A DNA stretch of 64,000 bases from Sipunculus nudus (lineage: Eukaryota; Annelida; Sipuncula; Golfingiida; Sipunculidae), in contig CM049318.1 of NCBI GenBank assembly GCA_026874595.1, positions 25,694,956 through 25,758,955 of the forward strand, written 5' to 3'. Below are positions 318 to 52,590 of this stretch, piece after piece. Every line of letters begins with the position of its first letter. The first letter of the stretch is position 1. Both the position numbers and the translations under genes were made by a program. The notes under the pieces were generated by a model. The model ran no database searches. It was given only the letters and a program-made list of their open reading frames with translations, and was not told the origin of the DNA.

Positions 318-437
318 AAATCTTTTGGAATCATTGGCGCCCGTGCTATGGCGAAGATTTCCGAAGACGTGTTGGATATTGTCATCACGGTTGCGATAGG
401 CCGTTGATAGAAGAAAGAGAACCATGTCCATTTTCAT
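318..437 (+). CDS. TSP1-like module exon (module 1 of the TSP1/MAM gene)
   Basis: This 120-nt exon has an acceptor TTTTACAG and a donor T|GTAAGT, and is phase 1 at both ends. The translation carries the TSP1 opening WNHW (WxxW) followed by RPCYGEDFRRR and cysteine spacing ending PCPFSC. In TSP1 modules the Trp and Arg side chains stack into a ladder, WxxW tryptophans are C-mannosylation sites, and six cysteines form three disulfides. This copy is short, with about five cysteines, and lacks the usual CxxTCxxG fucosylation motif, so it is a divergent module. The last base (T) joins GC at 1167 to make the Cys codon that opens the MAM domain, which links the two exons. The protein should be secreted or a membrane ectodomain. 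Fairly sure of the exon, less sure of the family name. Confidence 0.7.
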
Positions 438-1166: not shown

Positions 1167-1313
1167 GCAGTGCGATACTAAACTGTGATGTAGTAGGATT
1201 TGGCTGCGACGAAATTGTTTCACTGGGAATCGGCGATCACTCTTGGACAGTGCATTTTGGTAAATCAGATACAGCTGGAACCGGACAGACCGATCAAACA
1301 GGAAACATATTAA
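1167..1313 (+). CDS. MAM domain 1, first exon
   Basis: This 147-nt exon is phase 1 at both ends (acceptor TATTTAG, donor A|GTATGT). The encoded segment has the MAM start pattern: a cysteine strand (ILNCDVVGFGCDE), then a tryptophan strand (HSWTVHFGKSDTAGTGQTDQT), equivalent to the C-F-E-C...W.....GTGP..D.T pattern of the family. MAM domains are jelly-roll beta-sandwich adhesion modules found in meprins, receptor phosphatases and neuropilins. The last base A joins AA at 1605 to give Lys, continuing into the expected aromatic strand (YYFQAEA). The domain continues at 1605-1798 and 3169-3318. Confidence 0.8.
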
Positions 1314-1604: not shown

Positions 1605-1798
1605 AATATTATTTTCAAGCAGAAGCAAACGATACAGACAAGCCCGGGGATCAAGCAGTAATGAGGAAAAAGAAATTCATGGGAATAAATTCAATTATTG
1701 TCTAACATTTCGTTACCTGATGAACGGTGACCATATCGGAAGACTTCTTGTGAAATGGAACACTACGACACGTGTTGAAACTATCTTCGAATTAACAG
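1605..1798 (+). CDS. MAM domain 1, middle exon, with an apparent 1-nt frameshift
   Basis: The acceptor is TTTTCAG and the donor G|GTAACA. The exon begins in one frame (YYFQAEANDTDKPGDQA, the MAM strand before the conserved Pro/Gly turn) and ends in another (NYCLTFRYLMNGDHIGRLLV, the conserved C-L-x-F-x-Y-x-M-x-G-x-x-I-G block). Its length is 194 nt. A symmetric phase-1 exon needs 3n, and one more base gives 195. The switch falls near the A-rich run about 1664-1673, so a single missing A there is the simplest explanation. That is either a true null or pseudogene mutation or a homopolymer assembly error. Domain identity is clear in both halves. Confidence 0.75.
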
Positions 1799-3168: not shown

Positions 3169-3318
3169 GCCATCAAGGCATTGATTGGTACAACCAGGAA
3201 GTGAATTTTACTATGGCCAGTCCTCCATTCTCTGTGTTGTTCGTGGCCATACGTGGGAATGGAAACAGAGGAGATATCAATCTGAATAATGTAACTATCT
3301 CAAATGGAGACTGTGGAG
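3169..3318 (+). CDS. MAM domain 1, last exon
   Basis: This 150-nt exon is phase 1 at both ends (acceptor TCGACAG, donor G|GTATAA). It encodes the C-terminal half of a MAM domain: an opening W strand (HQGIDWYNQEVNF), the PPFSVLFVAIRGNG strand, then RGDINLNNVTISNGDC, matching the family pattern G-x-x-GDIALDDI...C. The preceding donor base G (1798) joins GC to make Gly, giving ELTG-HQGIDW, the usual spacing. The RGD tripeptide is part of the normal MAM strand and need not be an integrin site. Confidence 0.85.
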
Positions 3319-4148
3319 GTATAATTTATTGTAGTACGCACAAACACGAACACCTCCACACATATACTGAATGTAAACACATTAGGCTTAGTGGCAATGG
3401 CACGAGGTAGTTTTCTTACTCAAGAAGGAAAGGAAGTGAAATATTTTTCATTCAAGCGTTTGTAAGCAGAGCCTTGGGTCACTGAATAGTGACTTTCCGG
3501 CATAGCAGTCTTTGCAACTCACCGTGGGTGAATTCTGCATCGTGTATTTGATTCATCTGTTTCTGATGTCTCATATCTCTGATCCTTTCTTACTCTCTCG
3601 CCTAGGGGTTACAGGTTCTATTTTCCTTACCACACTTCGCCTGTTCTATCAAAGCGGATCGAATTTATGCTGTATGATAGTGAGACAACTGGCCATGGAT
3701 GGCGACACGAAAATAATCATATGCATTGTAGGCAAGAACAAAAGGGTGTTTCCTGAGATAAAAAAAAAAAATTATCCAGTTCTCCTTCAATTACTGCTTA
3801 TTTTCTTTTCAGGGAGCTCCTGAGTCGCATTGTAAAATCGAATTACAGAAATAATTGAATGAAGATTGAATAAGTGCGAGCTATGTTTACCTACTTTTTG
3901 CTGCCACTGTCTTGTCTATAATTGTTTTACTATGGTTAAGTGTCCCTATATTTATGCCCAATATAGGTCACTGTGGCAATTGTCTTAGTATTGTGTCAGA
4001 TCATGCCAAGCTTCAAGCACCATATGTCATCTGGTTTTAAACAATACAATTTGTTACCGTTATAACTTTATATATTTGAATATGGAATTCTGATAAACAC
4101 TATACTCTTAATATGAATCTGTGTTCTGTTTCTTGACTAATTTTGTAG

Positions 4149-4295
4149 AACTTACCTGGACGGCGTGGGGACAATGCAGTTCTACGTGTGAAGGGCAAAA
4201 ATCAAGACAAATGTCCCGTGGAGACGGTAGAATTATAACACAGACCAAGCCGTGCGGTCAAATCAATTGCAACGTTCCAGTCATCTTTATCCAGG
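4149..4295 (+). CDS. TSP1 module exon (duplicated block, exon 1, copy A)
   Basis: This 147-nt exon is phase 1 at both ends (acceptor TTTTGTAG, donor G|GTAAAT). It encodes ELTWTAWGQCSSTCEG: the WxxW C-mannosylation motif and the CSSTCEG sequence that fits the POFUT2 O-fucosylation pattern CxxS/TCxxG. It then has an Arg strand (SRQMSRGDG), a PCGQINC ending and a hydrophobic linker (VPVIFIQG). It contains an RGD tripeptide whose exposure is unknown. It differs from copy B only by a synonymous Glu codon change at its start. Confidence 0.88.
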
Positions 4296-4482
4296 GTAAA
4301 TTTATTCTCAACCCAGTACCAATTTTTAATTCAATATTGTATCATATGAAGTATGTTAATCTTATGTAGCAAGCGTTACAACGGTGAGTAGTAGATGGGT
4401 TATAAGCTAGTAAACTGCAGAGCAGAAATTATGGATAAGTGCCAATGTATAAAAAAATAAAAATAAATATGTTACATTTTAG

Positions 4483-4587
4483 ATAACCAAGGAACTTGGA
4501 TTCGCTGTTCTGCAACTTGTGGTTTGGGCATGCAAAGACATACCGCCACACGAGAGACAAGGCTATGTATTTTGAAGGCTTGTCCTG
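4483..4587 (+). CDS. short TSP1-like exon (duplicated block, exon 2, copy A)
   Basis: This 105-nt exon is phase 1 at both ends (acceptor TTTTAG, donor G|GTAAGC). The translation opens GTWIRCSATCGLGMQRH: one Trp, the CSATCGLG O-fucosylation pattern, then a short Arg/Thr strand and a CILKACP ending. At 35 residues it is shorter than a normal TSP1 module (50-60) and lacks the WxxW pair, so it may be a half module that packs onto its neighbour. The intron from the previous exon is only 187 bp. Confidence 0.8.
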
Positions 4588-4723
4588 GTAAGCTTACACA
4601 TTTTACTGAAATGTTAGTCAGATAATCATTCATTAATATCCATTTAGTAGTCTGACGTCACTATTGAGACGTAACTATGCTGCTTATTATCAAAGTGGGC
4701 AATTACATAGAGGGTTCGGAAAT

Positions 4724-4793
4724 CTGCTGTAGCCCAGTAGCTTGAGCAAACGACCTCCAATCGGAAGGTCATTGGTTCTATTCCTATCGGCAG
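4724..4793 (+). repeat. tRNA-like sequence, probable tRNA-derived SINE head (copy A)
   Basis: This 70-nt stretch has a pol III A-box-like motif (TAGCCCAGTAGCTTGAGC) and a B-box region GGTTCTATTCC, one change from the consensus GGTTCGATTCC that copy B keeps. The ends CTGCTGT and CGGCAG can pair over six positions like an acceptor stem. The anticodon arm is irregular with no U33, so I do not call it a functional tRNA gene. Confidence 0.45.
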
Positions 4794-5109
4794 TGTATTC
4801 ATGTTTAATTTTTCCATACAATGAACCAGCATGGTTATTGTTACAGCTCTCTTTATAATATATGCCTCAAACCATTTAAGGCCACCAGTTCACCCTGCTT
4901 CATGTTTCGACAAGTAGACAGCAGCACTCTGACGTTTCTACTGTGCAGTCACTTTGCTGGTTTCTTTAAGTGTGCATAGCAAGGTGGTAGGGAATCTGTT
5001 TTAACTGAGTGGCTTGAGCAAAATACCGATACACCGACAAGAGCTGACCTGAGCATTTCTTTGTTATATAAAATTAACAGGACTCTCATGCCCACAAAAA
5101 GCAAAAAAG

Positions 5110-5285
5110 TGACAACTAAAGAATGTACCTGTTGAAATCCCGCAAACTGCCCTGTACCCTAAAATGCCTTACAAAGTCAATTATATACCAAGCGACAGTG
5201 AAACCTTATTCAGAAATGCAGTCAAAATACACAAATCATTAAATACATATGGGAATTTTCTCCATAATCTGAGTTTATTTAACTG
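5110..5285 (+). pseudogene. Penelope-type GIY-YIG relic, internally deleted (copy A)
   Basis: Same relic as at 14363-14625 in copy B, but 79 bp shorter. The region holding the Y-V core strand and the following helix is missing, so CCAAGCGACAGT runs straight into GAAACCTTATTCAG. Only the short LTKSIIYQA strand and the tail remain. Non-functional. Confidence 0.5.
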
Positions 5286-7260
5286 TTTCATTTGATCCAT
5301 TGATTATGAAAATTGATGATTTGTGCTGAAACAACGAGTATCTGGGAAATAGCCCTTTCATCGGGTTTTGCCTTGTGCATGAATAAAACTAAAACTACTT
5401 GTATACAGGTATTTGAAATACAAACAAATATAATGCTGGTGGGTTTCATTTGAAAGATTTGTCCATAAAATTCTTTCTGTTTGATAAAAAAATAATAAAT
5501 TTAGATTTGTGCGTACTTCTTCATAAAAAAATATATTTTTTTCTTTCTGATTTTGATTTTTTATTATGTCTGATTTTAGACTAATGCATGTTTGCAGTGA
5601 TAACCAGGGAGTTTTCAAGTAATGGTCTTTTGCATTGAACCCTTCAACCTTACAATTATCATCCAAATCCTGATGAAAATTTCCATTAAGTGTAGTCTAG
5701 TCATTTTAGTCATTATTTATTTAGTAGTTTCTGTATATATGTGAGAAATCCGCCAGTTCTAATTAATCTTATCACAGCATATATAAAGTAACTGCTCAAG
5801 TTTCCAACCAGTTCGTGAAGAAATTATATATTTTTTTATACCATAATCAAAGTAACTTTGTTACCTGCATGCTGTGATTTTTACATATAATTATATAATT
5901 TTCGTTTACTGTAGACTGCAGTGATCATGTGACTTTTCTTTCTAAATGATTCTTACTTTTGTGGCCATTCGCGTGTTTTTTTTATTCATAGTATACAACA
6001 AGGTAAGATACTTTCAGCATATTATATGCTTAGATTGAATGTTGATTACATTGAACAAAACAAATGGGTAAACTCAATTGAGTGTTATATGTAGTGGAAG
6101 TAATTAAAAGTTTCTGCCATTTTACCAGTTTTTTTCAAAATTTCGGGACAGGAATATAATCAGGAGTTTCTCTAATGTTACTGATAATAAGAAAATATAT
6201 GGATATATCTGAATCCGCGAAAACGGTTCTATTGTCAACAAGATAATTTACTAAGGTGGAGGTATATGCACTGTACTGATTTCCGTTCTATAGTACAAAA
6301 TGCTTTGGACACTACAGTAACTTTACTGTGGTTTTTATTTTGCAATGATTTATACAGTCAATAGACTTGTTCAAAATGACCCCCATCTTATTTATAGCTT
6401 CTCTTATTTTTATAGGATTGAATTTTTGGCGAAAGAGTAAATTTCCTAGCATTCACCTTTGTTACTGCTGTTGATAAAATAAACAGAAATATCACAGATC
6501 TGTTATGTAATACATTTAGATTCATAGCCCATAATTAAAAATGGATACAACGTTGTGTAGTGTGCAATATTTTAGGAACTGCCGCACATTTTCTTTATTT
6601 TTCTTTCACATCTGGTAAAATTTGAGTAATTTTGATTGGATCTGTGAATTGGAAAACAAATCAATTTTTCATTCTGTCTCTGCGACATGTTTGTTCTAAG
6701 GACACGTTTCTACAAACAGAACGCTTAAATATTTTCATTAGAACGCACTCTTGTCTTAGGGTAATGCACAGAGTACCTCATATAGATCAGGCCTGTGTGC
6801 TTAATTATGATTTGACTAATTCATGCACCATGAGTGCTCATCAATCTTTCTTATTTTTTTCATCATTAAACTTGCCACTAAACTTTTATGTTAATAAAAG
6901 AATGGCAAATTTCTTAACTAAAAGTGAATTTAATAGAGTAATTTAGAAAACAATTTGAATCAATATTATTCCCAACACACTGAATAAGGAATGAAATTTC
7001 ATATAAATTCCTTAATTTTAATTTCATTAGAATTTAAAACACTAGATTGAAACTCTAAAAATGTTTTGACCAACGATGCCCATCCTGATAAAAGGAAAAC
7101 CCGAAACTGCCTTTAAAGTGAGTGAATAAATGAAAATATTATAGTATTAGTCCACTAAGTTGATCAGAAAACTGGATAATATCTATGAGCTTTTTTAACC
7201 CGAAGTGGCTGTATAGAAAGAGCACAGATCCATATACACTTATAAAAAATTGATTAACAA

Positions 7261-7262
<2 letters not shown>

Positions 7263-7304
<42 letters not shown>
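7263..7304. repeat. (TA)n microsatellite
   Basis: Pure TA run; its copy-B counterpart at 16595 is slightly shorter. Confidence 0.95.
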
Positions 7305-7307
<3 letters not shown>

Positions 7308-7649
7308 GGTAAAGAGTAAAATTGACGCTTTTAGATACACTAACTCGTTAATGAATATGCTTGTCTATCTCAACCATCGACCTTCCTGAAAAAGTTACAA
7401 ACAAAATTCAGTGGTGTTGCGCTAGTTTTCATTCATGATACGCAAAGGTAATTCCTGCAGCTTTGCAGAAAAAAATAGGTGCAGACTCGGATATTATTCA
7501 GCAATCTTCTTACTTTGAGTGTCATGCAAATTTAAGGAATGACTCGTTTCATGCAAATGACCTTTACTTCAAACTTTGGCTGGGTTTAATTGCAAACATT
7601 CATTTTCTACACAAATACCAAAGGTCACAAATTAACCCAAAAATATCAA

Positions 7650-7651
<2 letters not shown>

Positions 7652-7702
<51 letters not shown>
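7652..7702. repeat. (TA)n microsatellite
   Basis: Pure TA run of about 50 bp. In copy B it is about 30 bp, which accounts for most of the change in offset between the two duplicates here. Confidence 0.95.
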
Positions 7703-7703
<1 letters not shown>

Positions 7704-8956
7704 CTATTTTGCTGAAGAATTAACCATAAATATAAAATATGCTATTTTGTTGGTGTTACAGATTTTATGAACACGTCTTCAAAAGAAAATCAAAATAGGA
7801 ATTAAATGGTGTTTATTCCTTAAGCATATGATCAGTAGCTATAGTATATTTTGTAACTATATGTCGTGCTTCCGCTTTCCTTTCGCGCGTATTCAGAACT
7901 TCTTTGCTCGTTGTCGGTTACGTTAGTCACAAGGAGTAAGAAGTCCTAATATGGATATTCACAAACATGTTAGCCACTATCAAACCCGGAAATTCGTGTT
8001 CCGCGGTAGAGTTGACCGGAAACATTCCATATTGAGTGACTACATGGCAGCGATGATCTTTATATCCACAACTGGTATGAAACTTGAAACCTGAATAAAG
8101 TTCGAATTTAAGTCCCCGCATAGATTGATATATCTTCTTTCTGTTAAGAAATTTAGAGGTTTGTTAAATTGATACATTATTATAATAATCATGAATTATT
8201 ATAATACGACGTTATAGTCATAAGATTTGGGTGCAAACGACCTATAACCGACTTTGCCGATGACGTCACTTCCTCGTGGTAATTTAGATGGTAGCTTGGG
8301 GCCAGTTTTTACAATATATCGTGGCATTTAATCCTTGCAAGCTGATAGTCGCACGTTGATTAATCTCAACATTTAAGTGACAGAGGACGTTGCATTATAG
8401 CGAGGAAAGCGGGTGACACTGTACTGCTAAAATGAAGTATACCAGTTGACAAAACATGCAGCTCTGCACAAACTGTTGAGTTCATATATTCATAAATGCA
8501 TACGACGCCGTCAAATAAAATATATGGCCATATATTATAAGTTCGATATAAGCTACATGTTCAGAACTAAGGATTGTTTAAATTAATTGGTTGCAGCATT
8601 TTCAAAAATTGTACTCAATCATACATATGTATATGTACATATTAATTTAACACAAATGAGATTCTTAAAATAACAATTGTACTCATTGTATCTAAGACTG
8701 CTTTTTAATGAAATAATCCTTCTTTATAAATATCTAATTGGTTTGTTATAAAGTAAGCCGAATATGCGAAAAACTATCATCCACATGTCATCAAGGGTTC
8801 CGCAGTTCGCATTATTTCACAAAAAAGAAAGTGTCCAGTATAAATCTCATGAACTAAATTACACTTTAAAATTTTCCGTTTAACAGAAAGCAATATTATT
8901 TTCCCCTTTTGTGGAAGTAAATGGATTTATTGTTGCATTTTGAAACGCTCTTACAG

Positions 8957-9088
8957 GAAATTGGAATCTTTGGGGATCCTGGAGTCCCTGTTCAACTCAG
9001 AGATGTATGCAGTGGCGATCCAGAACTTGTAAAGATGAATTCTGCACAGGGTTTTTTACAAATATCCGGAATTGCACTGAATGTCCAG
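8957..9088 (+). CDS. TSP1 module exon (duplicated block, exon 3, copy A)
   Basis: This 132-nt exon is phase 1 at both ends (acceptor TCTTACAG, donor G|GTGATT). It encodes GNWNLWGSWSPCSTQRC, the canonical triple-Trp start W..WG.WSPC, then an Arg strand (MQWRSRTC) and closing cysteines (NCTECP). N-x-T/S sites (NCT) offer possible N-glycosylation. The O-fucosylation motif is absent (CSTQRC). Copy B has Ile in place of the Arg just before the second cysteine. Confidence 0.88.
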
Positions 9089-12010
9089 GTGATTTTCTTT
9101 TTATTTTACTCTTTGAAAATGAGGATATATTTTCGTTTGAATTAGCAATCACTTGTAAACTCTTATTTTTATACAAGAATCTGCAAACTTGTTTAGTCAA
9201 CGGCATATGACAGTGCAAATTTCCAGTATTCTGTATTACCCCAACAATACAGCTACAGTAGAGCGTCGTTTATCCGAAAGCCTTCGGGGGACAAGCTTTT
9301 TGTTCTGATGAGCGATCGTACGGATAAACGATTTCGCATGAAATTGCTCTTGGAATCGCTGTGATTACCGCCGACTTCGGGACATTGCCGGATACTGACT
9401 GACCCAAATTGATTAAGCTAGCCAATAATAAAAATAATGACAATATATTGTAACATTTTCTATCGATTTAATAAATGTATCATACAGTACACATTATTAT
9501 AATATAATTCTTGGTGAAAAGCCCTGCGCTGGAAACAATTGCAATCGTACCTACATCTATTTACTACACTTTGGCCTTTTGAAATCAGTTCGACAAAGTC
9601 AAAGCAATGAGCCTTTTCTTTTGACTTTGCCAAACCGAAACGTAGTTAATAACCTACATCATGTGACGCGTGGCTGCCATGATAACTGGAGTGACCTGCT
9701 ATGACCTAGAAAGTGCTGCCATATCTCAGCAGACAGGTTAACTACGGGAACCCATTATTCATGTACAGCACTTTTTTTGAAATTATAATTGAGCCAAGGA
9801 ATCGGTTGAGTGCACCAGTAAACAAATTTATTTACACAGTTGAAATTCAAAAACAGGAAACAAGGTATATGTCCCTGATCGTAGATCTGACGACGTTGCA
9901 ATCTCTGGAGAGGTCAGCTTTGGTACCCGTGTTGAAATATTGCAAGGATCGTCATCTTGTCAACAACTGACAGGACACGGCGCTTGCGCTTACGTAACTC
10001 CATTGACCAGTAAGAGTTAACAGAATTTTAAAATTCTCGTGGAGAATAATCAGGATGAGCAGTTAACCGTGTTGACATTGACTAGCACTATGAGGCTGAG
10101 ATTATCACACCTACAACCTGCGGTCGCCTACTAAGTTATGGCCTGTTGTAACATTTTGTTTGTACAGATTAATTACCTGGGGAATCTGATGAAAGCGAGA
10201 CGAGTACCACCTACTGCTTACGGTTGGGTGCACTTATCAAGCGGCATTAAGTATCACCGCTGATCTGGCTAGTTTTGTTTTGAATCAGACGATCTTTTAT
10301 ACCATTTTTTATTCTGGATTGTTTGTCTTTGTTCATATTTCGAATAAATGGTAAAAATCCGGCTCTCTGTTTTCCTTTTATTTTGGACGGTAGAACGACG
10401 TTCTTCTGTATTATATCGATTTGTTCGACTTTTTTTAATATGAACGGCAATGATGCCATTTAAATGTACGCTTTATTTTGGTACATCTAGTTCACTGTCT
10501 GGAATGCGCAACATAACAGGAATGATGCGTTATATGCAACACAATTTCTCAAGATCAGCACATTTAAAGATATATGTCTACTGCATAACCTAGAACTGTC
10601 CCCATCCGTATATATATTTACCTTTTGCCTGCACTTGAGGAGAATAAGTGTACATTTTCATGATTGAATTATTTGATCGAGAGTGTAAATTGTAAAAGTG
10701 AAAGCATATTTGCTGAAACCTTTGAAGGTTGCTTAGAGTGGACCAGAGAGTGGGAAGTTTTAAGGTTCAAACAAGGACCTTCATTGCAAGGTTTTGGTAA
10801 TCTTTTAAACGGTTGGCAGTGGAGCATCAACGCTTTTATATTAACTATGTTTAAAGATTCATGGAGGAGATTTAAAAGGATCGGTTACATTGAGTCTGCA
10901 AGACACCTGATTATGGTAAAATTAGGGATATTTTCCTTATGATTTTTTCTTGATCAGTCATGTTTTATTGGTTCAATTACATACGCAGATTATTGACCAA
11001 CTTGAATCTATTTTAAGATTTTTGCAAATATATGATGCAACAAAAACGATGATATTTAAGTGAACGATTATTTTTTTTTATTTACTATTAAGCCCAAAGA
11101 TTAGAAGAAATTCAGAGGAGACTGAGATAAAAAGCTATGGTGTATAAATATTAAACTTAGTTCAAGGTATGATCAAGCTGACTTGACCAGGCTGCTTGCC
11201 AAATGGATATGGTGAACCTATTAACTCTTAAGGCTGCTCTGAGGGCTTTGTTTTGTTGAACTTCTAGTTCATATAGATGTTTTTAGCTGTACCTATGAAA
11301 GCCTATTCCTATGGGGCTAATCCATTTTTATATAGATATGTAGCCGTTTGTAGTTTTGGTCCCCCTTCTCATAGCACACAGCCTTTACAGCATTTATCCT
11401 ACTCCAAATTTGTTGACTGATATACTCTGTGGGAGAGCACCAAGTGACTTTTATGTCAAAAATTACACCTAAGAATCTGGCAGCGTCAGAATCTTATAAA
11501 TACAGAGTAACATGCGCAATTTCCACGTTTAAGCACAGGGATTGTAACATGGATCGGTTTGTGTATTATTAAGCAATGTTAGAACACACTTATATATGTA
11601 ACCGTGTTCTATATAGCAAACCAGGTGAGTGCGCGATACATAACAGGTAACTTGGAGAGTAGCGTGTGGGTAATTCACAAACCAGGCGAGTGCACGGTAA
11701 ACACTTTTTTCTACTTTCAAAATGGCAGATGTTACAATGGGAATGGTTAACTTTTTTTAAATTACTATTGTAATGAGTGTCATTTTGGGAGTGCATCTGC
11801 GGATCACGTGGCACTATAGCCGTTGACAAGGGGAAACTCACGGGAAATAATCGAATATTACATAAATCATCGAATCAATTAATACATCAAAACATTTTGT
11901 GACCCAGTTGTAGACATAAAGTATCTTTTAATTATTCTGTCTGTAATAGAAGATTTAAAGTACGAACTACAACTTATGTTTATTCTGTCATACTTAATTT
12001 TGTTTTCCAG
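9089..12010 (+). other. intron in copy A
   Basis: 2.9 kb of AT-rich DNA between TSP1 exons. Only the pogo-like relic near 9256 is recognisable. Small open frames at 9713-9970 and 10664-10942 look like chance. Confidence 0.6.
9256..9335 (+). mobile_element. pogo-like inverted-repeat relic (copy A)
   Basis: CAGTAGAGCGTCGTTTATCCG resembles a pogo/Tigger-type terminus (CAGT... with a TTATCCGA core), and an 11-bp perfect inverted repeat follows (TCGTTTATCCG at 9266-9276, CGGATAAACGA at 9321-9331). No second outer terminus ending in ACTG was found nearby, so this is one end or a truncated MITE. It is present in both duplicates (18559 in copy B), so it predates the duplication. Confidence 0.5.
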
Positions 12011-12163
12011 AATGCTCTGTGTACATTTGGGAACAATGGAGTCAATGCAGACGTTCCTGCTACGCCTTAGTTAGACAGAGGAATAGACAAGGCGCCTGCA
12101 CAAATTCCTCTGGTGTTTACAGAAAAAATGAAACTGGGCCTTGCAGAGGGAATCAGTACTGTG
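12011..12163 (+). CDS. TSP1 module exon (duplicated block, exon 4, copy A)
   Basis: This 153-nt exon is phase 1 at both ends (acceptor GTTTTCCAG, donor G|GTAAAT). It encodes VYIWEQWSQCRRSC (WxxWSxC), an Arg-rich strand (VRQRNRQGAC) with spaced cysteines, and the ending GPCRGNQYC. The second-cysteine region reads CRRSCYAL and so lacks the Gly of the O-fucosylation motif. It is the last exon of the duplicated block. The copy-B version has a changed donor. Confidence 0.87.
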
Positions 12164-12466
12164 GTAAATATATTGCTTCATATTGTTTGACTATTCATAA
12201 ATATTTCTTCTATATATTGATGGACTGACTTTCCTTAGCTTAGTGTAGCAAGTGTAGCTTGGTAGCATTGACGGTTCACAATTCCCATTTTACTATGATT
12301 CTTTATCTCTGCTAACGACAAAATATTTTTGCTTTAGTGCAACGCGGTACACAAATAGAGTTATCAATTAATACCAAAATACCAGTAAACAAAAACGCCA
12401 CTTATGTATAATACATTTCAAATAATTCTGGACGTTCACGATATATGGTGACTGGATATATGTTCG

Positions 12467-12501
12467 GTCCCCTTCCTTCCTTCATACATGAGGAAGGGGA
12501 C
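12467..12501 (+). other. 11-bp stem-loop (copy A)
   Basis: GTCCCCTTCCT and AGGAAGGGGAC are perfect inverted repeats around a 13-nt loop, conserved in copy B at 21769-21803. It lies in an intron. No adjacent gene explains it. Confidence 0.6.
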
Positions 12502-13401
12502 AGAGCACCCGAAAACTAGTGTATAAGAACTTTCACACAGGTAATCTTTAAAAATGTTTGACCCGTTTTCGTTACCTTTTAGATGTTCCAACTTTATCTT
12601 CTCTGCAAGCGGTAGTTCACACCTCAATGCATTAGGCAAACAAAAGGTAAACTATTGACAGCGTATAAAAAGCATGGTGACTGGTTATAGGTTAATTATG
12701 AAGAACAAAACTATGAAACTTTAGCCTTGGGTCACTGAATACTGACTTTCCGGCATAGCAGTCTTTGCAACTCACCGTGGGTGAATTCTGCATCGTGTAT
12801 TTGATTCATCTGTTTCTGATGTCTCATATCTCTGATCCTTTCTTACTCTCTCGCCTAGGGGTTACAGGTTCTATTTTCCTTACCACACTTCGACTGTTCT
12901 ATCAAAGCGGATCGAATTTATTCTGTATGATAGTGAGACAACTGGCCATGGATGGCGACACAAAAATAATCATATGCATTGTAGGCAAGAACAATAGGGT
13001 GTTTCCTGAGATTTAAAAAAAAAATTATCCAGTTCTCCTTCAATTACTGCTTATTTTCTTTTCAGGGAGCTCCTGAGTCGCATTGTAAAATCGAATTACA
13101 GAAATAATTGAATGAAGATTGAATAAGTGCGAGCTATGTTAACCTACTTTTTGCTGCCACTGTCTTGTCTATAATTGTTTTACTATGGTTAAGTGTCCCT
13201 TTATTTATGCCCAATATAGGTCACTGTGGCAATTGTCTTAGTATTGTGTCAGATCATGCAAAGCTTCAAGCACCATATGTCATCTGGTTTTAAACAATAC
13301 AATTTGTTACCGTTATAACTTTATATATTTGAATATGGAATTCTGATAAACACTATACTCTTAATATGCATCTGTGTTCTGTTTCTTGACTAATTTTGTA
13401 G

Positions 13402-13548
13402 AGCTTACCTGGACGGCGTGGGGACAATGCAGTTCTACGTGTGAAGGGCAAAAATCAAGACAAATGTCCCGTGGAGACGGTAGAATTATAACACAGACCA
13501 AGCCGTGCGGTCAAATCAATTGCAACGTTCCAGTCATCTTTATCCAGG
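13402..13548 (+). CDS. TSP1 module exon (block exon 1, copy B)
   Basis: Same protein as 4149-4295 with intact splice sites and phase 1 ends. The only coding change noticed is GAA to GAG in the first codon (with the upstream G), which is synonymous. Confidence 0.87.
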
Positions 13549-13735
13549 GTAAATTTATTCTCAACCCAGTACCAATTTTTAATTCAATATTGTATCATAT
13601 GAAGTATGTTAATCTTATGTAGCAAGCGTTACAACGGTGAGTAGTAGATGGGTTATAAGCTAGTAAACTGCAGAGCAGAAATTATGGATAAGTGCCAATG
13701 TATAAAAAAATAAAAATAAATATGTTACATTTTAG

Positions 13736-13840
13736 ATAACCAAGGAACTTGGATTCGCTGTTCTGCAACTTGTGGTTTGGGCATGCAAAGATATACCGCC
13801 ACAAGAGAGACAAGGCTATGTATTTTGAAGGCTTGTCCTG
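13736..13840 (+). CDS. short TSP1-like exon (block exon 2, copy B)
   Basis: Same as 4483-4587 with intact splice sites. Position 13792 changes CAT to TAT (His to Tyr after MQR), and a nearby Arg codon changes CGA to AGA silently. Confidence 0.8.
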
Positions 13841-13976
13841 GTAAGCTTACACATTTTACTGAAATGTTAGTCAGATAATCATTCATTAATATCCATTTAG
13901 TAGTCTGACGTCACTATTGAGACGTAACTATGCTGCTTATTATCAAAGTGGGCAATTACATAGAGGGTTCGGAAAT

Positions 13977-14046
13977 CTGCTGTAGCCCAGTAGCTTGAGC
14001 AAACGACCTCCAATCGGAAGGTCATTGGTTCGATTCCTATCGGCAG
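13977..14046 (+). repeat. tRNA-like sequence, probable tRNA-derived SINE head (copy B)
   Basis: Counterpart of 4724-4793 with a perfect B-box core GGTTCGATTCC and the same A-box-like motif and acceptor-like ends. It is the less decayed copy. Irregular anticodon arm. Confidence 0.5.
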
Positions 14047-14362
14047 TGTATTCATGTTTAATTTTTCTATACAATGAACCAGCATGGTTATTGTTACAGC
14101 TCTCTTTATAATATATGCCTCAAACCATTTAAGGCCACCAGTTCACCCTGCTACATGTTTCGACAAGTAGACAGCAGCACTCTGACGTTTCTACTGTGCA
14201 GTCACTTTGCTGGTTTCTTTAAGTGTGCATAGCAAGGTGGTAGGGAATCTGTTTTAACTGAGTGGCTTGAGCAAAATACCGATACACCGACAAGAGCTGA
14301 CCTGAGCATTTCTTTGTTATATAAAATTAACAGGACTCTCATGCCCACAAAAAGCAAAAAAG

Positions 14363-14625
14363 TGACAACTAAAGAATGTACCTGTTGAAATCCCGCAAAC
14401 TGCCCTGTACCCTAAAATGCCTTACAAAGTCAATTATATACCAAGCGACAGTCACTAATGAAGACAACATAGCAAACCAGACATATGTAGACTCAAGACG
14501 GAACACCTTTGAAACTAGATTTAATAACTACAAAACCTTATTTAGAAATGCAGTCAAAATACACAAATCATTAAATACATATGGGAATTTTCTCCATAAT
14601 CTGAGTTTATTTAACTGTTTCGTTT
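14363..14625 (+). pseudogene. Penelope-type GIY-YIG endonuclease relic (copy B)
   Basis: The translation from 14376 reads LKCLTKSIIYQATVT, then QTYVDSRRNTFETRFNNYK. This is the pattern seen at the C-terminus of Penelope-like retroelements (CLTKSIIYQATV...QTYVGLTE.TF.TRF.NHK), whose GIY-YIG nuclease nicks target DNA. The relic has lost the usual Gly-Leu after YV (here Asp-Ser) and the upstream reverse transcriptase cannot be seen. Only about 80 codons remain, ending in a stop. It lies in an intron of the TSP1 gene in the same orientation. Confidence 0.6.
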
Positions 14626-16592
14626 GATCCATTGATTATGAAAATTGATGATTTGTGCTGAAACAACGAGTATCTGGGAAATAGCCCTTTCATCGGGTTT
14701 TGCCTTGTGCATGAATAAAACTAAAACTACTTGTATACAGGTATTTGAAATACAAACAAATATAATGCTGGTGGGTTTCATTTGAAAGATTTGTCCATAA
14801 AATTCTTTCTGTTTGATAAAAAAATAATAAATTTAGATTTGTGCGTACTTCTTCATAAAAAAATATATTTTATTCTTTCTGATTTTGATTTTTTATTATG
14901 TCTGATTTTAGACTAATGCATGTTTGCAGTGATAACCAGGGAGTTTTCAAGTAATGGTCTTTTGCATTGAACCCTTCAACCTTACAATTATCATCCAAAT
15001 CCTGATGAAAATTTCCATTAAGTGTAGTCTAGTCATTTTAGTCATTATTTATTTAGTAGTTTCTGTATATATGTGAGAAATCCGCCAGTTCTAATTAATT
15101 TTATCACAGCATATATAAAGTAACTGCTCAAGTTTCCAACCAGTTCGTGAAGCAATTATATATTTTTTTTATACCATAATCAAAGTAACTTTGTTACCTG
15201 CATGCTTTGATTTTTACATATAATTATAAAATTTTCGTTTACTGTAGACTGCAGTGATCATGTGACTTTTCTTTCTAAATGATTCTTACTTTTGTGGCCA
15301 TTCGCGTGTTTTTTTTATTCATAGTATACAACAAGGTAAGATACTTTCAGCATATTATATGCTTAGATTGAATGTTGATTACATTGAACAAAACAAATGG
15401 GTAAACTCAATTGAATGTTATATGTAGTGGAAGTAATTAAAAGTTTCTGCCATTTTACCAGTTTTTTTCAAAATTTCGGGACAGGAATATAATCAGGAGT
15501 TTCTCTTATGTTACTGATAATAAGAAAATATATGGATATATCTGAATCCGCGAAAACGGTTCTATTGTCAACAAGATAATTTACTAAGGTGGAGGTATAT
15601 GCACTGTACTGATTTCCGTTCTATAGTACAAAATGCTTTGGACACTACAGTAACTTTACTGTGGTTTTTATTTTGCAATGATTTATACAGTCAATAGACT
15701 TGTTCAAAATGACCCCCATCTTATTTATAGCTTCTCTTATTTTTATAGGATTGAATTTTTGGCGAAAGAGTAAATTTCCTAGCATTCACCTTTGTTACTG
15801 CTGTTGATAAAATAAACAGAAATATCACAGATCTGTTATGTAATACATTTAGATTCATAGCCCATAATTAAAAATGGATACAACGTTGTGTAGTGTGCAA
15901 TATTTTAGGAACTGCCGCACATTTTCTTTATTTTTCTTTCACATCTGGTAAAATTTGAGTAATTTTGATTCGATCTGTAAATTGGAAAACAAATCAATTT
16001 TTCATTCTGTCTCTGCGACATGTTTGTTCTAAGGACACGTTTCTACAAACAGAACGCTTAAATATTTTCATTAGAACGCACACTTGTCTTAGGGTAATGC
16101 ACAGAGTACCTCATATAGATCAAGCCTGTGTGCTTAATTATGATTTGACTAATTCATGCACCATGAGTGCTCATCAATCTTTCTTATTTTTTTCATCATT
16201 AAACTTGCCACTAAAATTTTATGTTAATAAAAGAATGGCAAATTTCTTAACTAAAAGTGAATTTAATAGAGTAATTTAGACAACAATTTGAATCAATATT
16301 ATTCCCAACACACTGAATAAGGAATGAAATTTCATATAAATTCCTTAATTTTAATTTCATTAGAATTTAAAACACTAGATTGAAACTCTAAAAATGTTTT
16401 GACCAACGATGCCCATCCTGATAAAAGGAAAACCCGAAACTGCCTTTAAAGTGAGTGAATAAATGAAAATATTATAGTATTAGTCCACTAAGTTGATCAG
16501 AAAACTGGATAATATCTATGAGCTTTTTTACCCGAAGTGGCTGTATAGAAAGAGCACAGATCCATATACACTTATAAAAAATTGATTAACAA

Positions 16593-16594
<2 letters not shown>

Positions 16595-16634
<40 letters not shown>
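16595..16634. repeat. (TA)n microsatellite
   Basis: Copy-B counterpart of 7263-7304. Confidence 0.95.
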
Positions 16635-16637
<3 letters not shown>

Positions 16638-16979
16638 GGTAAAGAGTAAAATTGACGCGTTTAGATACACTAACTCGTTAATGAATATGCTTGTCTATCT
16701 CAACCATGGACCTTCCCGAAAAAGTTACAAACAAAATTCAGTGGTGTTGCGCTAGTTTTCATTCATGATACGCAAAGGTAATTCCTGCAGCTTTGCAGAA
16801 AAAAATAGGTGCAGACTCGGATATTATTCAGCAATCTTCTTACTTTGAGTGTCATGCAAATTTAAGGAATGACTCGTTTCATGCAAATGACCTTTACTTC
16901 AAACTTTGGCTGGGTTTAATTGCAAACATTCATTTTCTACACAAATACCAAAGGTCACAAATTAACCCAAAAATATCAA

Positions 16980-16981
<2 letters not shown>

Positions 16982-17012
<31 letters not shown>
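16982..17012. repeat. (TA)n microsatellite
   Basis: Copy-B counterpart of 7652-7702, about 20 bp shorter. Confidence 0.95.
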
Positions 17013-17013
<1 letters not shown>

Positions 17014-18259
17014 CTTTTTTGCTGAAGAATTAACCATAAATATAAAATATGCTATTTTGTTGGTGTTACAGATTTTATGAACACGTCTTCAAAAGAAAAT
17101 CAAAATAGGAATTAAATGGTGTTTATTCCTTAAGCATATGATCAGTAGCTATAGTATATTTTGTAACTATATGTCGTGCTTCCGCTTTCCTTCCGCGCGT
17201 ATTCAGAACTTCTTTGCTCGTTGTCGGTTACGTTAGTCTCAAGGAGTAAGAAGTCCTAATATGGATATTCGCAAACATGTTAGCCACTATCAAACCCGGA
17301 AATTCGTGTTCCGCGGTAGAGTTGACCGGAAACATTCCATATTGAGTGACTACATGGCAGCGATGATCTTTATATCCACAACTGGTATGAAACTTGAAAC
17401 CTGAATAAAGTTCGAATTTAAGTCCCCGCATAGATTGATATATCTTCTTTCTGTTAAGAAATTTAGTTAAATTGATACATTATTATAATAATCATGAATT
17501 ATTATAATACGACGTTATAGTCATAAGATTTGGGTACAAACGACCTATAACCGACTTTGCCGATGACGTCACTTCCTCGTGGTAATTTAGATGGTAGCTT
17601 GGGGCCAGTTTTTACAATATATCGTGGCATTTAATCCTTGCAAGCTGATAGTCGCACGTTGATTAATCTCAACATTTAAGTGACAGAGGACGTTGCATTA
17701 TAGCGAGGAAAGCGGGTGACACTGTACTGCTAAAATGAAGTATACCAGTTGACAAAACATGCAGCTCTGCACAAACTGTTGAGTTCATATATTCATAAAT
17801 GCATACGACGCCGTCAAATAAAATATATGGCCATATATTATAAGTTCGATATAAGCTACATGTTCAGAACTAAGGATTGTTTAAATTAATTGGTTGCAGC
17901 ATTTTCAAAAATTGTACTCAATCATACATATGTATATGTACATATTAATTTAACACAAATGAGATTCTTAAAATAACAATTGTACTCATTGTATCTAAGA
18001 CTGCTTTTTAATGAAATAATCCTTCTTTATAAATATCTAATTGGTTTGTTATAAAGTATGCCGAATATGCGAAAACCTATCATCCACATGTCATCAAGGG
18101 TTCCGCAGTTCGCATTATTTCACAAAAAAGAAAGTGTCCAGTATAAATCTCATGAACTAAATTACACTTTAAAATTTTCAATTTAACAGAAAGCAATATT
18201 ATTTTCCCCTTTTGTGGATGTAAATGGATTTATTGTTGCATTTTGAAACGCTCTTACAG

Positions 18260-18391
18260 GAAATTGGAATCTTTGGGGATCCTGGAGTCCCTGTTCAACT
18301 CAGATATGTATGCAGTGGCGATCCAGAACTTGTAAAGATGAATTCTGCACAGGGTTTTTTACAAATATCCGGAATTGCACTGAATGTCCAG
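18260..18391 (+). CDS. TSP1 module exon (block exon 3, copy B)
   Basis: Same as 8957-9088 with identical splice sites. The codon at 18304-18306 is ATA (Ile) where copy A has AGA (Arg), next to a conserved cysteine. This could affect the Trp-Arg ladder. Confidence 0.87.
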
Positions 18392-21312
18392 GTGATTTTC
18401 TTTTTATTTTACTCTTTGAAAATGAGGATATATTTTCGTTTGAATTAGCAATCACTTGTAAACTCTTATTTTTATACAAGAATCTGCAAACTTGTTTGGT
18501 CAATGGCATATGACAGTGCAAATTTCCAGTATTCTTTATTACCCCAACAATACAGCTACAGTAGAGCGTCGTTTATCCGAAAGCCTTCGGGGGACAAGCT
18601 TTTTGTTCTGATGAGCGATCGTACGGATAAACGATTTCGCATGAAATTGCTCTTGGAATCGCTGTGATTACCGCCGACTTCGGGACATTGCCGGATACTG
18701 ACTGACCCAAATTGATTAAGCTAGCCAATAATAAAAATAATGACAATATATTGTAACATTTTCTATCGATTTAATAAATGTATCATACAGTACACATTAT
18801 TATAATATAATTCTTGGTGAAAAGCCCTGCGCTGGAAACAATTGCAATCGTACCTACATCTATTTACTACACTTTGGCCTTTTGAAATCAGTTCGGCAAA
18901 GTCAAAGCAATGAGCCTTTTCTTTTGACTTTGCCAAACCGAAACGTAGTTAATAACCTACATCATGTGACGCGTGACTGCCATGATAACTGGAGTGACCT
19001 GCCATGACCTAGAAAGTGCTGCCATATCTCAGCAGACAGGTTAACTACGGGAACCCATTATTCATGTACAGTACTTTTTTTGAAATTATAATTAAGCCAA
19101 GGAATCGGTTGAGTGCACCAGTAAACAAATTTATGTACACAGTTGAAATTGAAAAACAGGAAACAAGGTATATGTCCCTGATCGTAGATCTGACGACGTT
19201 GCAATCTCTGGAGAGGTCAGCTTTGGTACCCGTGTTGAAATCTTGCAAGGATCGTCATCTTGTCAACAACTGACAGGACACGGCGCTTGCGCTTACGTAA
19301 CTCCATTGACCAGTAAGAGTTAACAGAATTTTAAAATTCTCGTGGAGAATAATCAGGATGAGCAGTTAACCGTGTTGACATTGACTAGCACTATGAGGCT
19401 GAGATTATCACACCTACAACCTGCGGTCGCCTACTAAGTTATGGCCTGTTGTAACATTTTGTTTGTACAGATTAATTACCTGGGGAATCTGATGAAAGCG
19501 AGACGAGTACCACCTACTGCTTACGGTTGGGTGCACTTATCAAGCGGCATTAAGTATCACCGCTGATCTGGCTAGTTTTGTTTTGAATCAGACGATCTTT
19601 TATACCATTTTTTATTCTGGATTGTTTGTCTTTGTTCATATTTCGAATAAATGGTAAAAATCCGGCTCTCTGTTTTCCTTTTATTTTGGACGGTAGAACG
19701 ACGTTCTTCTGTATTATATCAATTTGTTCGACTTTTTTAATATGAACGGCAAGGATGCCATTTAAATGTACGCTTTATTTTGGTACATCTAGTTCACTGT
19801 CTGGAATGCGCAACATAACAGGAATGATGCGTTATATGCAACACAATTTCTCAAGATCAGCACATTTAAAGATATATGTCTACTGCATAACCTAGAACTG
19901 TCCCCATCCGTATATATATAAACCTTTTGCCTGCACTTGAGGAGAATAAGTGTACATTTTCATGATTGAATTATTTGATCGAGAGTGTAAATTATAAAAG
20001 TGAAAGCATATTTGCTGAAACCTTTGAAGGTTGCTTAGAGTGGACCAGAGAGTGGAAAGTTTTAAGGTTCAAACAAGGACCTTCATTGCAAGGTTTTGGT
20101 AATCTTTTAAACGGTTGGCAGTGGAGCATCAACGCTTTTATATTAACTATGTTTAAAGATTCATGGAGGAGATTTAAAAGGATCGGTTACATTGAGTCTG
20201 CAAGACACCTGATTATGGTAAAATTAGGGATATTTTCCTTATGATTTTTTCTTGATCAGTCATGTTTTATTGGTTCAATTACATACGCAGATTATTGACC
20301 AACTTGAATCTATTTTAAGATTTTTGCAAATATATGATGCAACAAAAACGATGATATTTTAGTGAACGATTATTTCTTTTTATTTACTATTAAGCCCAAA
20401 GATTAGAAGAAATTCAGAGGAGACTGAGATAAAAAGCTATGGTCTATAAATATTAAACTTAGTTCAAGGTATGATCAAGCTGACTTGACCAGGCTGCTTG
20501 CCAAATGGATATGGTGAACCTACTAACTCTTAAGGCTGCTCTGAGGGCTTTGTTTTGTTGAACTTCTAGTTCATATAGATGTTTTTAGCTGTACCTATGA
20601 AAGCCTATTCCTATGGGGCTGATCCATTTTTATATAGATATGTAGCCGTTTGTAGTTTTGGTCCCCCTTCTCATAGCACACAGCCTTTACAGCATTTATC
20701 CTACTCCAAATTTGTTGACTGATATACTCTGTGGGAGAGCACCAAGTGACTTTTATGTCAAAAATTACACCTAAGAATCTGGCAGCGTCAGAATCTTATA
20801 AATACAGAGTAACATGCACAATTTCCACGTTTAAGCACAGGGATTGTAACATGGATCGGTTTGTGTATTATTAAGCAATGTTAGAACACACTTATATATG
20901 TAACCGTGTTCTATATAGCAAACCAGGTGAGTGAGCGATACATAACAGGTAACTTGGAGAGTAGAGTGTGGGTAATTCACAAACCAGGCGAGTGCACGGT
21001 AAACACTTTTTTCTACTTTCAAAATGGCAGATGTTACAATGGGAATGGTTAACTTTTTTTAAATTACTATTGTAATGAGTGTCATTTTCGGAGTGCATCT
21101 GCGGATCACGTGGCACTATGGCCGTTGACAAGGGGAAACTCACGGGAAATAATCGAATATTACATAAATCATCGAATCAATTAATACATTAGAACATTTT
21201 GTGACCCAGTTGTAGACATAAAGTATCTTTTAATTATTCTGTCTGTAATAGAAGATTTAAAGTACGAACTACAACTTATGTTTATTCTGTCATACTTAAT
21301 TTTGTTTTCCAG
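18392..21312 (+). other. intron in copy B
   Basis: Duplicate of 9089-12010. Nothing beyond the pogo-like relic. Confidence 0.6.
18559..18638 (+). mobile_element. pogo-like inverted-repeat relic (copy B)
   Basis: Counterpart of 9256-9335, with the same CAGTAGAG start and the TCGTTTATCCG / CGGATAAACGA inverted repeat. Confidence 0.5.
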
Positions 21313-21465
21313 AATGCTCTGTGTACATTTGGGAACAATGGAGTCAATGCAGACGTTCCTGCTACGCCTTAGTTAGACAGAGGAATAGACAAGGCGCCTG
21401 CACAAATTCCTCTGGTGTTTACAGAAAAAATGAAACTGGGCCTTGCAGAGGGAATCAGTACTGTG
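21313..21465 (+). CDS. TSP1 module exon (block exon 4, copy B) with altered donor
   Basis: Coding sequence as in 12011-12163. The donor reads G|GTTAAT where copy A has G|GTAAAT, so the favoured A at +3 is T. GTT donors are used but are weaker, so this exon may splice less well. The next acceptor would be 22725. Confidence 0.8.
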
Positions 21466-21768
21466 GTTAATATATTGCTTCATATTGTTTGACTATTCAT
21501 AAATATTTCTTCTATATATTGATGGACTGACTTTTCCTTAGCTTAGTGTAGCAAGTGTAGCTTGGTAGCATTGACGGTTCACAATAGCCATTTTACTGTG
21601 ATTCTTTATCTCTGCTAACGACAAAATATTTTTGCTTTAGTGCAACGCGGTACACAAATAGAGTTATCAATTAATACCAAAATACCAGTAAACAAAAACG
21701 CCACTTATGTATAATACATTTCAAATAATTCTGGACGTTCACGATATATGGTGACTGGATATATGTTC

Positions 21769-21803
21769 GGTCCCCTTCCTTCCTTCATACATGAGGAAGG
21801 GGA
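21769..21803 (+). other. 11-bp stem-loop (copy B)
   Basis: Counterpart of the hairpin at 12467-12501, unchanged. Confidence 0.6.
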
Positions 21804-22725
21804 CAGAGCACCCGAAAACTAGTGTATAAGAACTTTCACACAGGTAATCTTTAAAAATGTTTGACCCGTTTTCGTTACCTTTTAGATGTTCCAACTTTAT
21901 CTTCTCTGCAAGCGGTAGTTCACACCTCAATGCATTAGGCAAACAAAAGGTTAACTATTGACAGCGTATAAAAAGCATGGTGACTGGTTATAGGTTAATT
22001 ATGAAGAACAAAACTATGAAACTTTAGCTCTGGTCGTTTTGATCATAAAGCATGCGAATATGAAACGACTGTTTTTATTCGAATGACTTTTTTTTATGAA
22101 ATTCAAGCGTTATTTTTAAATAAAGTATGTTTTGACAAATTCCCTTATCAAATTGCATTACCCGAGATCGGATTTTTAAACTGCAAAAATCAACGCCCTT
22201 TGTTATAGCTTCCCATGACAAGGCTAACCCCTGTTTAAAATTTAGGAAAGTGCAATTCATTTTAATTTTTCTTTGATTTTGAATGATTTTGTTCTATATA
22301 CTATATTTAGGTAAAATGCCAGTCTATACTTTCATCAGTATTTATAGTTTCTGTGATTAAAGTTGCTCAACTTTCACTGAACATGTAAACACGCCGTCTA
22401 AATTCTACTCATAGTAAAATATACTGTCTTGTTCAAAACGTGTGTTATATGTAACATTGTGTCATGTGTAACATTCACTCGAAAATCTTAATTGCAGAGG
22501 TATCAAGTAAAATGTTGAAAATGTAGACTTTTGACGATTTCGAATCAATATTATGTGCACGAGTTCTCCGAGTTTCTCTTAAACTCCGGAAATATAAGTA
22601 TTCAAACTCGAACAATCTACATGCAGCTCATATTATATTCTGCCATGTTTAATTTTCTCCTTTTCGTATTGTTGATTAATAAAGAAAAAAAATAATAATA
22701 GTAATATGTTTACCAATGTCTTCAG

Positions 22726-22858
22726 AATGGAGCATCTGGTCAAGGTGGACTTGCGAAGTGACATGTGGCATTGGAACAAACAAACCGAAATTGCAGAGGC
22801 ACCGGATGTGTTGGACAAAACAGACACATAACACATTGCACGATGTCTGCATGTCCTG
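22726..22858 (+). pseudogene. TSP1 exon with a 5-nt frameshifting deletion
   Basis: The exon has an acceptor TCTTCAG and a donor G|GTCAGT. The first part reads EWSIWSRWTCEVTCGIGT (WxxW, and CEVTCGIG matching the O-fucosylation pattern). The second part only makes sense in another frame: RNCRGTGCVGQNRH and TMSACP, which align with the exons at 23669 and 24742. The exon is 133 nt; its sister at 24742 is 138 nt. The deletion lies about 22776-22785, where the sisters have 5 more bases between GGAACA and CCGAAATTGC. Including it in a transcript would shift the frame, so it is either skipped or marks a broken gene. Confidence 0.75.
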
Positions 22859-23668: not shown

Positions 23669-23815
23669 TATCGTCAAAATGGAGCATCTGGTCAAGTTGG
23701 AGATGCGGTGTGACCTGTGGCAGTGGAACAAAAAGCAGGGACCGAAATTGCACAGGAATCGGATGTGTAGGACATAGCAGGGAATCAGACCAATGTCGTC
23801 TACCTGCATGCCCGG
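23669..23815 (+). CDS. TSP1 module exon using a shifted acceptor
   Basis: It encodes KWSIWSSWRCGVTCGSGT, then RDRNCTGIGCVGHSR and CRLPACP, a standard TSP1 with WxxW and CGVTCGSG. The donor is G|GTAAGT. At the position homologous to the sister acceptors (TTCAG|AATGG) the sequence is GTCAAAATGG, so that AG is gone. An upstream AG (ATTAG at 23664-23668) gives a 147-nt phase 1-1 exon that adds three codons and keeps the frame. The pyrimidine tract in front of it is poor. Confidence 0.7.
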
Positions 23816-24741: not shown

Positions 24742-24879
24742 AATGGACCACCTGGTCTAAGTGGACATGCGATGTGATGTGTGGCAGTGGCACGCAAATC
24801 AGGTACCGAAATTGCACAGGAACCGGATGTGAAGGACAAAGCAGACATACACAACAATGTACGCTGCCTGCTTGCCCGG
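24742..24879 (+). CDS. TSP1 module exon
   Basis: This 138-nt exon is phase 1 at both ends (acceptor GCTGACAG, donor G|GTCTGT, a weak donor). It encodes EWTTWSKWTCDVMCGSGT, a strand YRNCTGTGCEGQSR and CTLPACP. WxxWxxW is complete. The O-fucosylation position is Met (CDVMC) where sister modules have Thr, so this module should not be O-fucosylated. Closest sister of the exons at 22726 and 23669, showing a local TSP1 subfamily expansion. Confidence 0.85.
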
Positions 24880-29026: not shown

Positions 29027-29127
29027 GTAAGTGAGATCCATATTCAGGCAAAAAATGAAACAAAGTACATTGATTCACCATTGATCATCCTTGATAATGA
29101 TTGATTAAATATTCTATATTAATAAAG

Positions 29128-50178: not shown

Positions 50179-50246
<68 letters not shown>

Positions 50247-52459: not shown

Positions 52460-52472
52460 GGTATCTGGGTAT

Positions 52473-52521: not shown

Positions 52522-52590
<69 letters not shown>

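Follow-up and report, generated by a model that had tools for sequence, protein, structure and literature searches.

Modules of symmetrical class 1-1 are prone to tandem duplication, and PMC3927616 names TSP1 as one of them. The route given there is unequal crossing-over, helped by intronic recombination. False heterotype duplications, as outlined in PMC9516828, are most often, but not always, separated by assembly gaps, and the same paper reports an allele-specific true tandem duplication lying in one contig with haploid-level depth. In this study, we focused on a 64-kb window (the whole stretch of DNA that was analysed; C13:25694956-25758955, forward strand of contig CM049318.1) of the Sipunculus nudus assembly GCA_026874595.1, in which a gene with MAM and TSP1 domains contains two adjacent copies of a four-exon block. 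This arrangement probably represents a real and young intron-to-intron tandem duplication within a MAM-TSP1 gene cluster that duplicates repeatedly.

The locus resembles the class 1-1 duplications of PMC3927616 in its symmetrical 1-1 exons, intronic breakpoints and preserved frame. It differs from them in that the four-exon block is young, its intron sequence and junction are readable, and a 3-bp match fits microhomology-mediated joining at least as well as unequal crossing-over. With the false heterotype duplications of PMC9516828 it shares adjacent near-identical copies, allele-like divergence and a partly duplicated gene, but no assembly gap is present here; the comparison is one of sequence. 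As in the clustered protocadherins (PMC4151104), adhesion-type genes are affected and tandem duplications are concentrated in a cluster. Whole variable exons with their promoters are duplicated in the protocadherins, whereas internal exons of a multi-exon gene are duplicated here, and no homology is claimed. No account of this duplication was found among the titles listed from the open-licence PubMed Central literature. The kind of event is already known; this case merits attention because it is clearly young and stands beside a graded set of other duplicates at the same locus.

Self-comparison with BLAST revealed one long near-identical direct repeat in the window (3470-5199 against 12723-14452 at 99.0%, and 5201-12725 against 14533-22028 at 98.7%). 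The first-pass annotation had described two head-to-tail units of 9253 and 9303 bp that are about 98-99% identical, and global alignment reproduced these lengths exactly: 9141 of the 9222 gap-free columns are identical and 81 carry substitutions (0.88%). The start of the pair at 3470 also held, whereas its end had been placed at 22027, 2 bp too far, owing to the microhomology. The copies are further distinguished by eight real indels: the largest is a 79-bp segment that copy 1 lacks at 5200, the next a 20-bp difference within a run of TA, and the others measure 7 bp, 2 bp and, in four cases, 1 bp; a ninth alignment gap (2 bp, at the extreme end) is a by-product of including the shared AG and was excluded. 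The low divergence, the exact junction and the location of both breakpoints inside predicted introns agree with the view that the duplication is recent, tandem and intron-to-intron. An exact head-to-tail junction in gap-free sequence, which characterizes a true tandem segmental duplication, is present, and there is no N in the window or in the 274 contiguous kb around it.

The motif AGC is common to the junction and both outer edges of the unit. It had been taken, at three boundaries, as a sign of a microhomology-mediated or replication-template-switch origin. The 3-bp match is real, but it counts as one observation, because any tandem duplication with 3-bp microhomology shows the match at its left edge, junction and right edge. 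Of 191,112 breakpoint pairs drawn at random from this window, 6.2% had at least 3 bp of microhomology by chance, and the match is therefore only mild support for a microhomology-mediated event. The longer near-match AGCYYTGG would be expected at 0.3% of randomly chosen pairs of positions, but this pattern was picked after inspection. A comparison of the 300-bp flanks of both breakpoints yielded only out-of-register matches of 8-11 bp; the longest (11 bp) precedes the left breakpoint by 10-20 bp, follows the right one by about 75-85 bp and may be due to chance. The original donor and acceptor of the fused intron are unaltered.

The gene model was built from domains, reading frames and splice signals. 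On the + strand the predicted order is a TSP1-like exon (T0), MAM domain 1, the duplicated four exons (e1-e4), more TSP1 exons, MAM domain 2 and three TSP1 exons (Table 1). The last exon of MAM domain 1 is the final exon found ahead of the duplication; on the + strand, e11 is the last TSP1 or MAM exon identified in the stretch reaching to 50.6 kb, and the interval from 32.4 to 50.6 kb gave no TSP1 or MAM match. As had been proposed, the splice signals give all four duplicated exons phase 1 on both sides and a length divisible by three in both copies, and their predicted splicing would add 179 codons in frame. Since each exon is 1-1, the loss of any single one by a splice change (e.g. copy-2 e4) would also keep the frame. 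Ends of e1 at the weak donors 4256 or 4273, which suggested a frame problem, were dropped after all GT sites had been listed, as donor 4295 restores phase 1-1.

The proposal that complete modules were added stood only in part: the frame is kept, but the curated Pfam TSP_1 cut-off (21.6 bits) is reached by none of the four exons (12.9, 19.7, 10.4 and 10.1 bits; trimmed copy-2 exons 15.1, 19.0, 12.4 and 11.3 bits), and the copy-2 e4 donor is weakened. Six of the seven downstream TSP1 exons (e6-e11) exceed the cut-off, the exception being the broken one at 22.7 kb, and the duplicated exons are therefore divergent modules. The TSP1 fold has a characteristic pattern of Trp and Cys residues with six Cys. 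Six Cys are found in e3 and e4 and four in e1 and e2; all four are TSP1-like, e1 and e2 being atypical. A profile made from these exons recovers them, which is circular.

The copies differ little in their coding parts. The exons carry four substitutions, two synonymous and two that replace an amino acid (e2, His to Tyr; e3, Arg to Ile), and open frames are retained throughout. Exons and introns differ at equal rates (4/537 versus 77/8685, p = 1.0, with low power). Three of the four donors are identical between the copies; at the e4 donor an A-to-T change at +3 lowers the score from 1.75 to -2.44 on a donor table that does not come from a database. Transitions make up 34 of the 81 substitutions (p = 0.10 against 1/3, 0.18 against 1/2 and 0.0013 against 0.6); their low share was not used as an error signature, which would need a known mutation spectrum for comparison.

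A related gene on the opposite strand, about 60-93 kb left of the window start, contains T0, MAM domain 1 and e1-e3 as well as an exon resembling e4 whose place in the order differs. Of the 81 differences, 31 lie where this paralogue could be aligned; copy 1 and copy 2 carry the derived state at 13 each, four fit neither and one falls in a gap. The copies have therefore changed at an equal overall pace. All four polarised changes in the exons and the e4 donor are on copy 2 (Fisher p = 0.096), with one further exon change fitting neither copy, which at most hints at relaxed constraint on copy 2. The 79-bp gap was left unpolarised rather than called a deletion in copy 1, as the paralogue does not align there; the frame around it looked retroelement-like, but Pfam gave no convincing match (COMMD1_N, E 0.047). 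Against the paralogue, T0, MAM1c and e4 (138 codons) have a pS of 0.371 and a pN/pS of 0.46 (bootstrap 0.30-0.70), which indicates constraint. For e1-e3 (124 codons) pS is 0.095 and pN/pS is 1.35 (bootstrap 0.76-2.97), so that no purifying selection is apparent. The lower pS suggests that the two genes exchanged the e1-e3 block at a later time than their other parts.

The duplication lies in a neighbourhood rich in similar events. With a domain E-value limit of 0.001, a profile built from this gene's own modules gave 55 TSP1-like matches in the 274-kb stretch, 18 of them on the + strand and 37 on the - strand; two of the 55 are halves of one broken exon. A second tandem duplication (C13:25556994-25569746 and 25571828-25584342) matches at 99.2% for 3.2 kb and at 96.9% for 9.4 kb, and one junction in this neighbourhood has a 2-bp match by eye. 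About 1 kb of it occurs twice more nearby, giving four copies with pairwise substitution divergences of 0.6% to 3.7%. Four copies exceed two haplotypes, so that, barring more than one kind of assembly error, real duplication has occurred in the cluster. Overall, duplicate pairs in the cluster are graded from 0.6% to 22%, with older pairs at 2-4% and at 11-22%, the inverted gene being among the latter. Within the gene itself, BLAST placed single-exon copies of greater age at 22.7, 23.7 and 24.7 kb; at 24296-24331 it also picked up a truncated relic through the adjoining intron and the start of the exon (profile E-value only 6). Modules of this gene seem to be gained and lost. Such a neighbourhood favours a real duplication, without being proof for this unit.

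A genome search was made with two parts of the unit, 3470-5200 and 8900-9800, in the assembly of 1.4265 Gb and 153 contigs (C13, 70.9 Mb). Near-identical matches were found at the two tandem places only, among the matches listed (best 40 of 462 candidates for 3470-5200 and best 40 of 1000 for 8900-9800); the remaining listed matches are dispersed repeats and, for 3470-5200, also one paralogue. The flank 25000-26700 is single copy with one weak relative in the genome (both candidates scored), and hence no separate haplotig of that flank was found.

The caution of the first-pass annotation about retained haplotypes, in which the assembler would have placed both alleles of a single locus one after the other, was justified. 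A divergence of 0.88% is within the allelic range of many invertebrates. The 81 differences show an even distribution, with variance/mean ratios of 1.20, 0.97 and 0.56 in 250-, 500- and 1000-bp bins; they fit a uniform null and look like the product of a single divergence time. In a two-sample coalescent with recombination (500-bp bins; runs kept if within 15 of the observed number of differences), runs as even as observed made up 0.6%, 0.9%, 5.9%, 21% and 37% at recombination/mutation ratios of 1.0, 0.3, 0.1, 0.03 and 0.01. Freely recombining alleles are therefore disfavoured. An arbitrary contig overlap would show the 3-bp microhomology by chance only, no assembly gap separates the copies, and the four-copy segment exceeds two haplotypes, although it concerns the neighbour and not this unit. 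Several observations weigh in the opposite direction. Alleles in a region of low recombination are compatible with the spacing test and could account for it, and the microhomology has a chance rate of 6.2%. The second duplication is similarly diverged (135/12409 = 1.09% versus 81/9222 = 0.88%, p = 0.13), a similarity that shared heterozygosity also predicts, and its segments differ from each other (0.56% versus 1.27%, p = 0.0007), as those of recombining alleles could. The best 40 of 1000 candidates for 8900-9800 did not include the e3 paralogue that another search found, so these genome-wide results are not exhaustive. In addition, the one-base frame break in the middle exon of MAM domain 1 and the broken exon at 22.7 kb indicate that parts of the gene may be decaying. 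On balance, retained haplotypes are less likely than a real duplication, and we regard them as unlikely.

Even a real duplication might be present on one parental chromosome only, a special case of the tandem duplication that we consider rather unlikely. Its low divergence and the repeated duplication nearby, which suggests copy-number polymorphism, would suit such a case, and one is reported in PMC9516828; however, 0.88% would be old for a neutral segregating duplication unless the population is large. Half read depth over both copies, which had been proposed as a refutation, would be an incomplete one by itself, because a real duplication on one chromosome also lowers depth. It is also conceivable, though we lean against it, that the duplication is neutral and lies in a decaying part of the gene with the added modules unused, which is compatible with a real tandem duplication. 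The equal exon and intron rates, the four polarised changes on copy 2 including the weakened donor, the two broken exons and the absence of detectable purifying selection on e1-e3 all point this way. On the other hand, none of the four exons has lost its open frame or 1-1 phase in either copy, three donors are identical, and T0, MAM1c and e4 are constrained; the MAM1 break, a single base in an A run, may be real or a sequence error.

The tandem duplication would have arisen through a break or a template switch, with the AGC match as the point at which the intron following e4 became connected to the one preceding e1. This joining would yield a second set of four phase 1-1 exons and the fused 1238-bp intron, and transcription and splicing according to the predicted signals would then produce a protein longer by 179 residues, in frame. 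The event would be one of a series, in which the neighbouring TSP1 cluster, including the inverted paralogue, repeatedly duplicated blocks. The sequence, exon phases, junction, divergence, paralogue and second duplication were observed directly, and we infer that the copies lie on one chromosome, as well as the mechanism and the splicing and function of the longer protein. A more speculative idea, which we think unlikely, is that the cluster is a fast-evolving recognition locus, in which phase-1 TSP1 blocks are duplicated, exchanged between the inverted genes and lost, the number of modules varies between individuals and e1-e3 form the diversifying part. For the latter, the interval of pN/pS includes 1 and pS is much below that of the rest of the gene.

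Table 1. Features of the MAM-TSP1 gene and of its duplications (window positions unless a contig is given)
Feature	Position	Strand	Basis or remark
T0, divergent TSP1-like exon, phase 1-1	318..437	+	no Pfam match; paralogue 51% protein identity
MAM domain 1, first exon, borders inferred	1167..1313	+	paralogue match, candidate splice sites; missed by Pfam
MAM domain 1, middle exon, 194 nt	1605..1798	+	one-base frame break versus paralogue, in A run
MAM domain 1, last exon, phase 1-1	3169..3318	+	Pfam MAM 35.4 bits
Copy 1 of tandem unit, 9253 bp	3470..12722	+	self-BLAST, global alignment
Copy 1 e1, 147 nt, phase 1-1	4149..4295	+	splice-site and frame reading
Copy 1 e2, 105 nt, phase 1-1	4483..4587	+	Pfam TSP1 families E 8e-5 to 0.016, all below cut-offs
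Copy 1 e3, 132 nt, phase 1-1	8957..9088	+	splice-site and frame reading
Copy 1 e4, 153 nt, phase 1-1, donor GTAAAT	12011..12163	+	splice-site and frame reading
Fused intron made by duplication, 1238 bp	12164..13401	+	559 bp of after-e4 intron and 679 bp of before-e1 intron
Junction microhomology AGC, within 8-bp near-match AGCYYTGG	12723..12725	.	alignment
Copy 2 of tandem unit, 9303 bp	12723..22025	+	self-BLAST, global alignment
Copy 2 e1	13402..13548	+	splice-site and frame reading
Copy 2 e2 (derived His to Tyr)	13736..13840	+	alignment, paralogue
Copy 2 e3 (derived Arg to Ile)	18260..18391	+	alignment, paralogue
Copy 2 e4, coding unchanged, donor weakened to GTTAAT (derived, 21468)	21313..21465	+	alignment, paralogue
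Broken-frame TSP1 exon, 133 nt	22726..22858	+	two matches in two frames; Pfam 10.8 bits
TSP1 exon e6	23669..23815	+	Pfam 23.1 bits
TSP1 exon e7	24742..24879	+	Pfam 30.8 bits
TSP1 exon e8	26121..26261	+	Pfam 30.5 bits
MAM domain 2, three exons (27994 to ~28131-28137, 28826-29026, 29128-29283), borders inferred	27994..29283	+	
TSP1 exon e9	29426..29566	+	Pfam 23.7 bits
TSP1 exon e10	29972..30112	+	Pfam 31.2 bits
TSP1 exon e11	32282..32434	+	Pfam 30.0 bits
Second tandem duplication and extra partial copies	C13:25556994-25594134, left of window		0.6-3.7% substitution divergence

Outside the duplicated block, the first exon of MAM domain 1 was initially taken to be absent, a view that was dropped when the paralogue revealed it; positions 1174-1287 match the paralogue without gaps at 80.7%, and the frame is kept. 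The Pfam MAM scores of MAM domain 2 are 31.0 bits (middle exon) and 39.8 bits (last exon), and its first exon was identified by eye; candidate sites for its exon borders were also located. In e6, the acceptor position used by its siblings reads AA and the frame is kept by an AG 9 nt upstream. The broken TSP1 exon is likely a relic.

Both copies of the unit contain a tRNA-like repeat (4723-4795 and 13976-14048; Rfam RF00005, 33.4 and 36.2 bits; none by ARAGORN), which, given the many dispersed genomic relatives of its stretch, is probably a tRNA-derived short interspersed element. Elsewhere in the window are a minisatellite of about 4.5 kb with 53-bp units (56753-61232) and, on the - strand at 50657-52630, a TRIM-like 658-aa frame, open from stop to stop, in which RING and NHL exceed the Pfam cut-offs and a B-box match is weaker; a second copy of the 3-kb segment around this frame (50124-53111) follows 15.4 kb later with 85% identity. 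Genome-wide, exons of both families are abundant and clustered, with at least 149 MAM matches (best 150 of 314 candidates; e.g. on C1 and C13) and at least 150 TSP1 matches (best 150 of 1749 candidates). A TSP1-exon array with a period of about 880 bp, 79-89% identical when self-aligned at successive offsets, is located at C12:31849001-31858000.

As a control we used one family, PF00342, which was taken to be single-copy. Its main gene, apparently the glucose-6-phosphate isomerase gene of the animal itself, gave 10 matches on C11 to different parts of the profile, none forming a near-identical tandem set. The control is ambiguous because three extra matches form a partial inverted second set about 60 kb away; the two sets lie at C11:2265278-2274474 (-) and 2333946-2361590 (+). 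The same search found uninterrupted frames at 12 places on 11 contigs (C61, C62, C66-C69, C72, C75, C89, C90 and C101). At 11 of these places the frame is 466 aa long with weak scores of 51-52 bits, and that on C101 is 576 aa, 629 bits and without introns. Judging from these frames, bacterial, perhaps symbiont, contigs may be present in the assembly.

Modular extracellular proteins grow by the copying of phase-1 exon blocks, and usually only the old outcomes are visible. Here the four-exon event is so young that its junction, its fused intron and its divergence are still legible, and a graded series of older events accompanies it at the same locus. Gene models at this locus need to be checked against reads. 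The gene can gain modules without losing its reading frame, and the locus is a single site at which to measure how TSP1 modules arise, decay and possibly vary in copy number.
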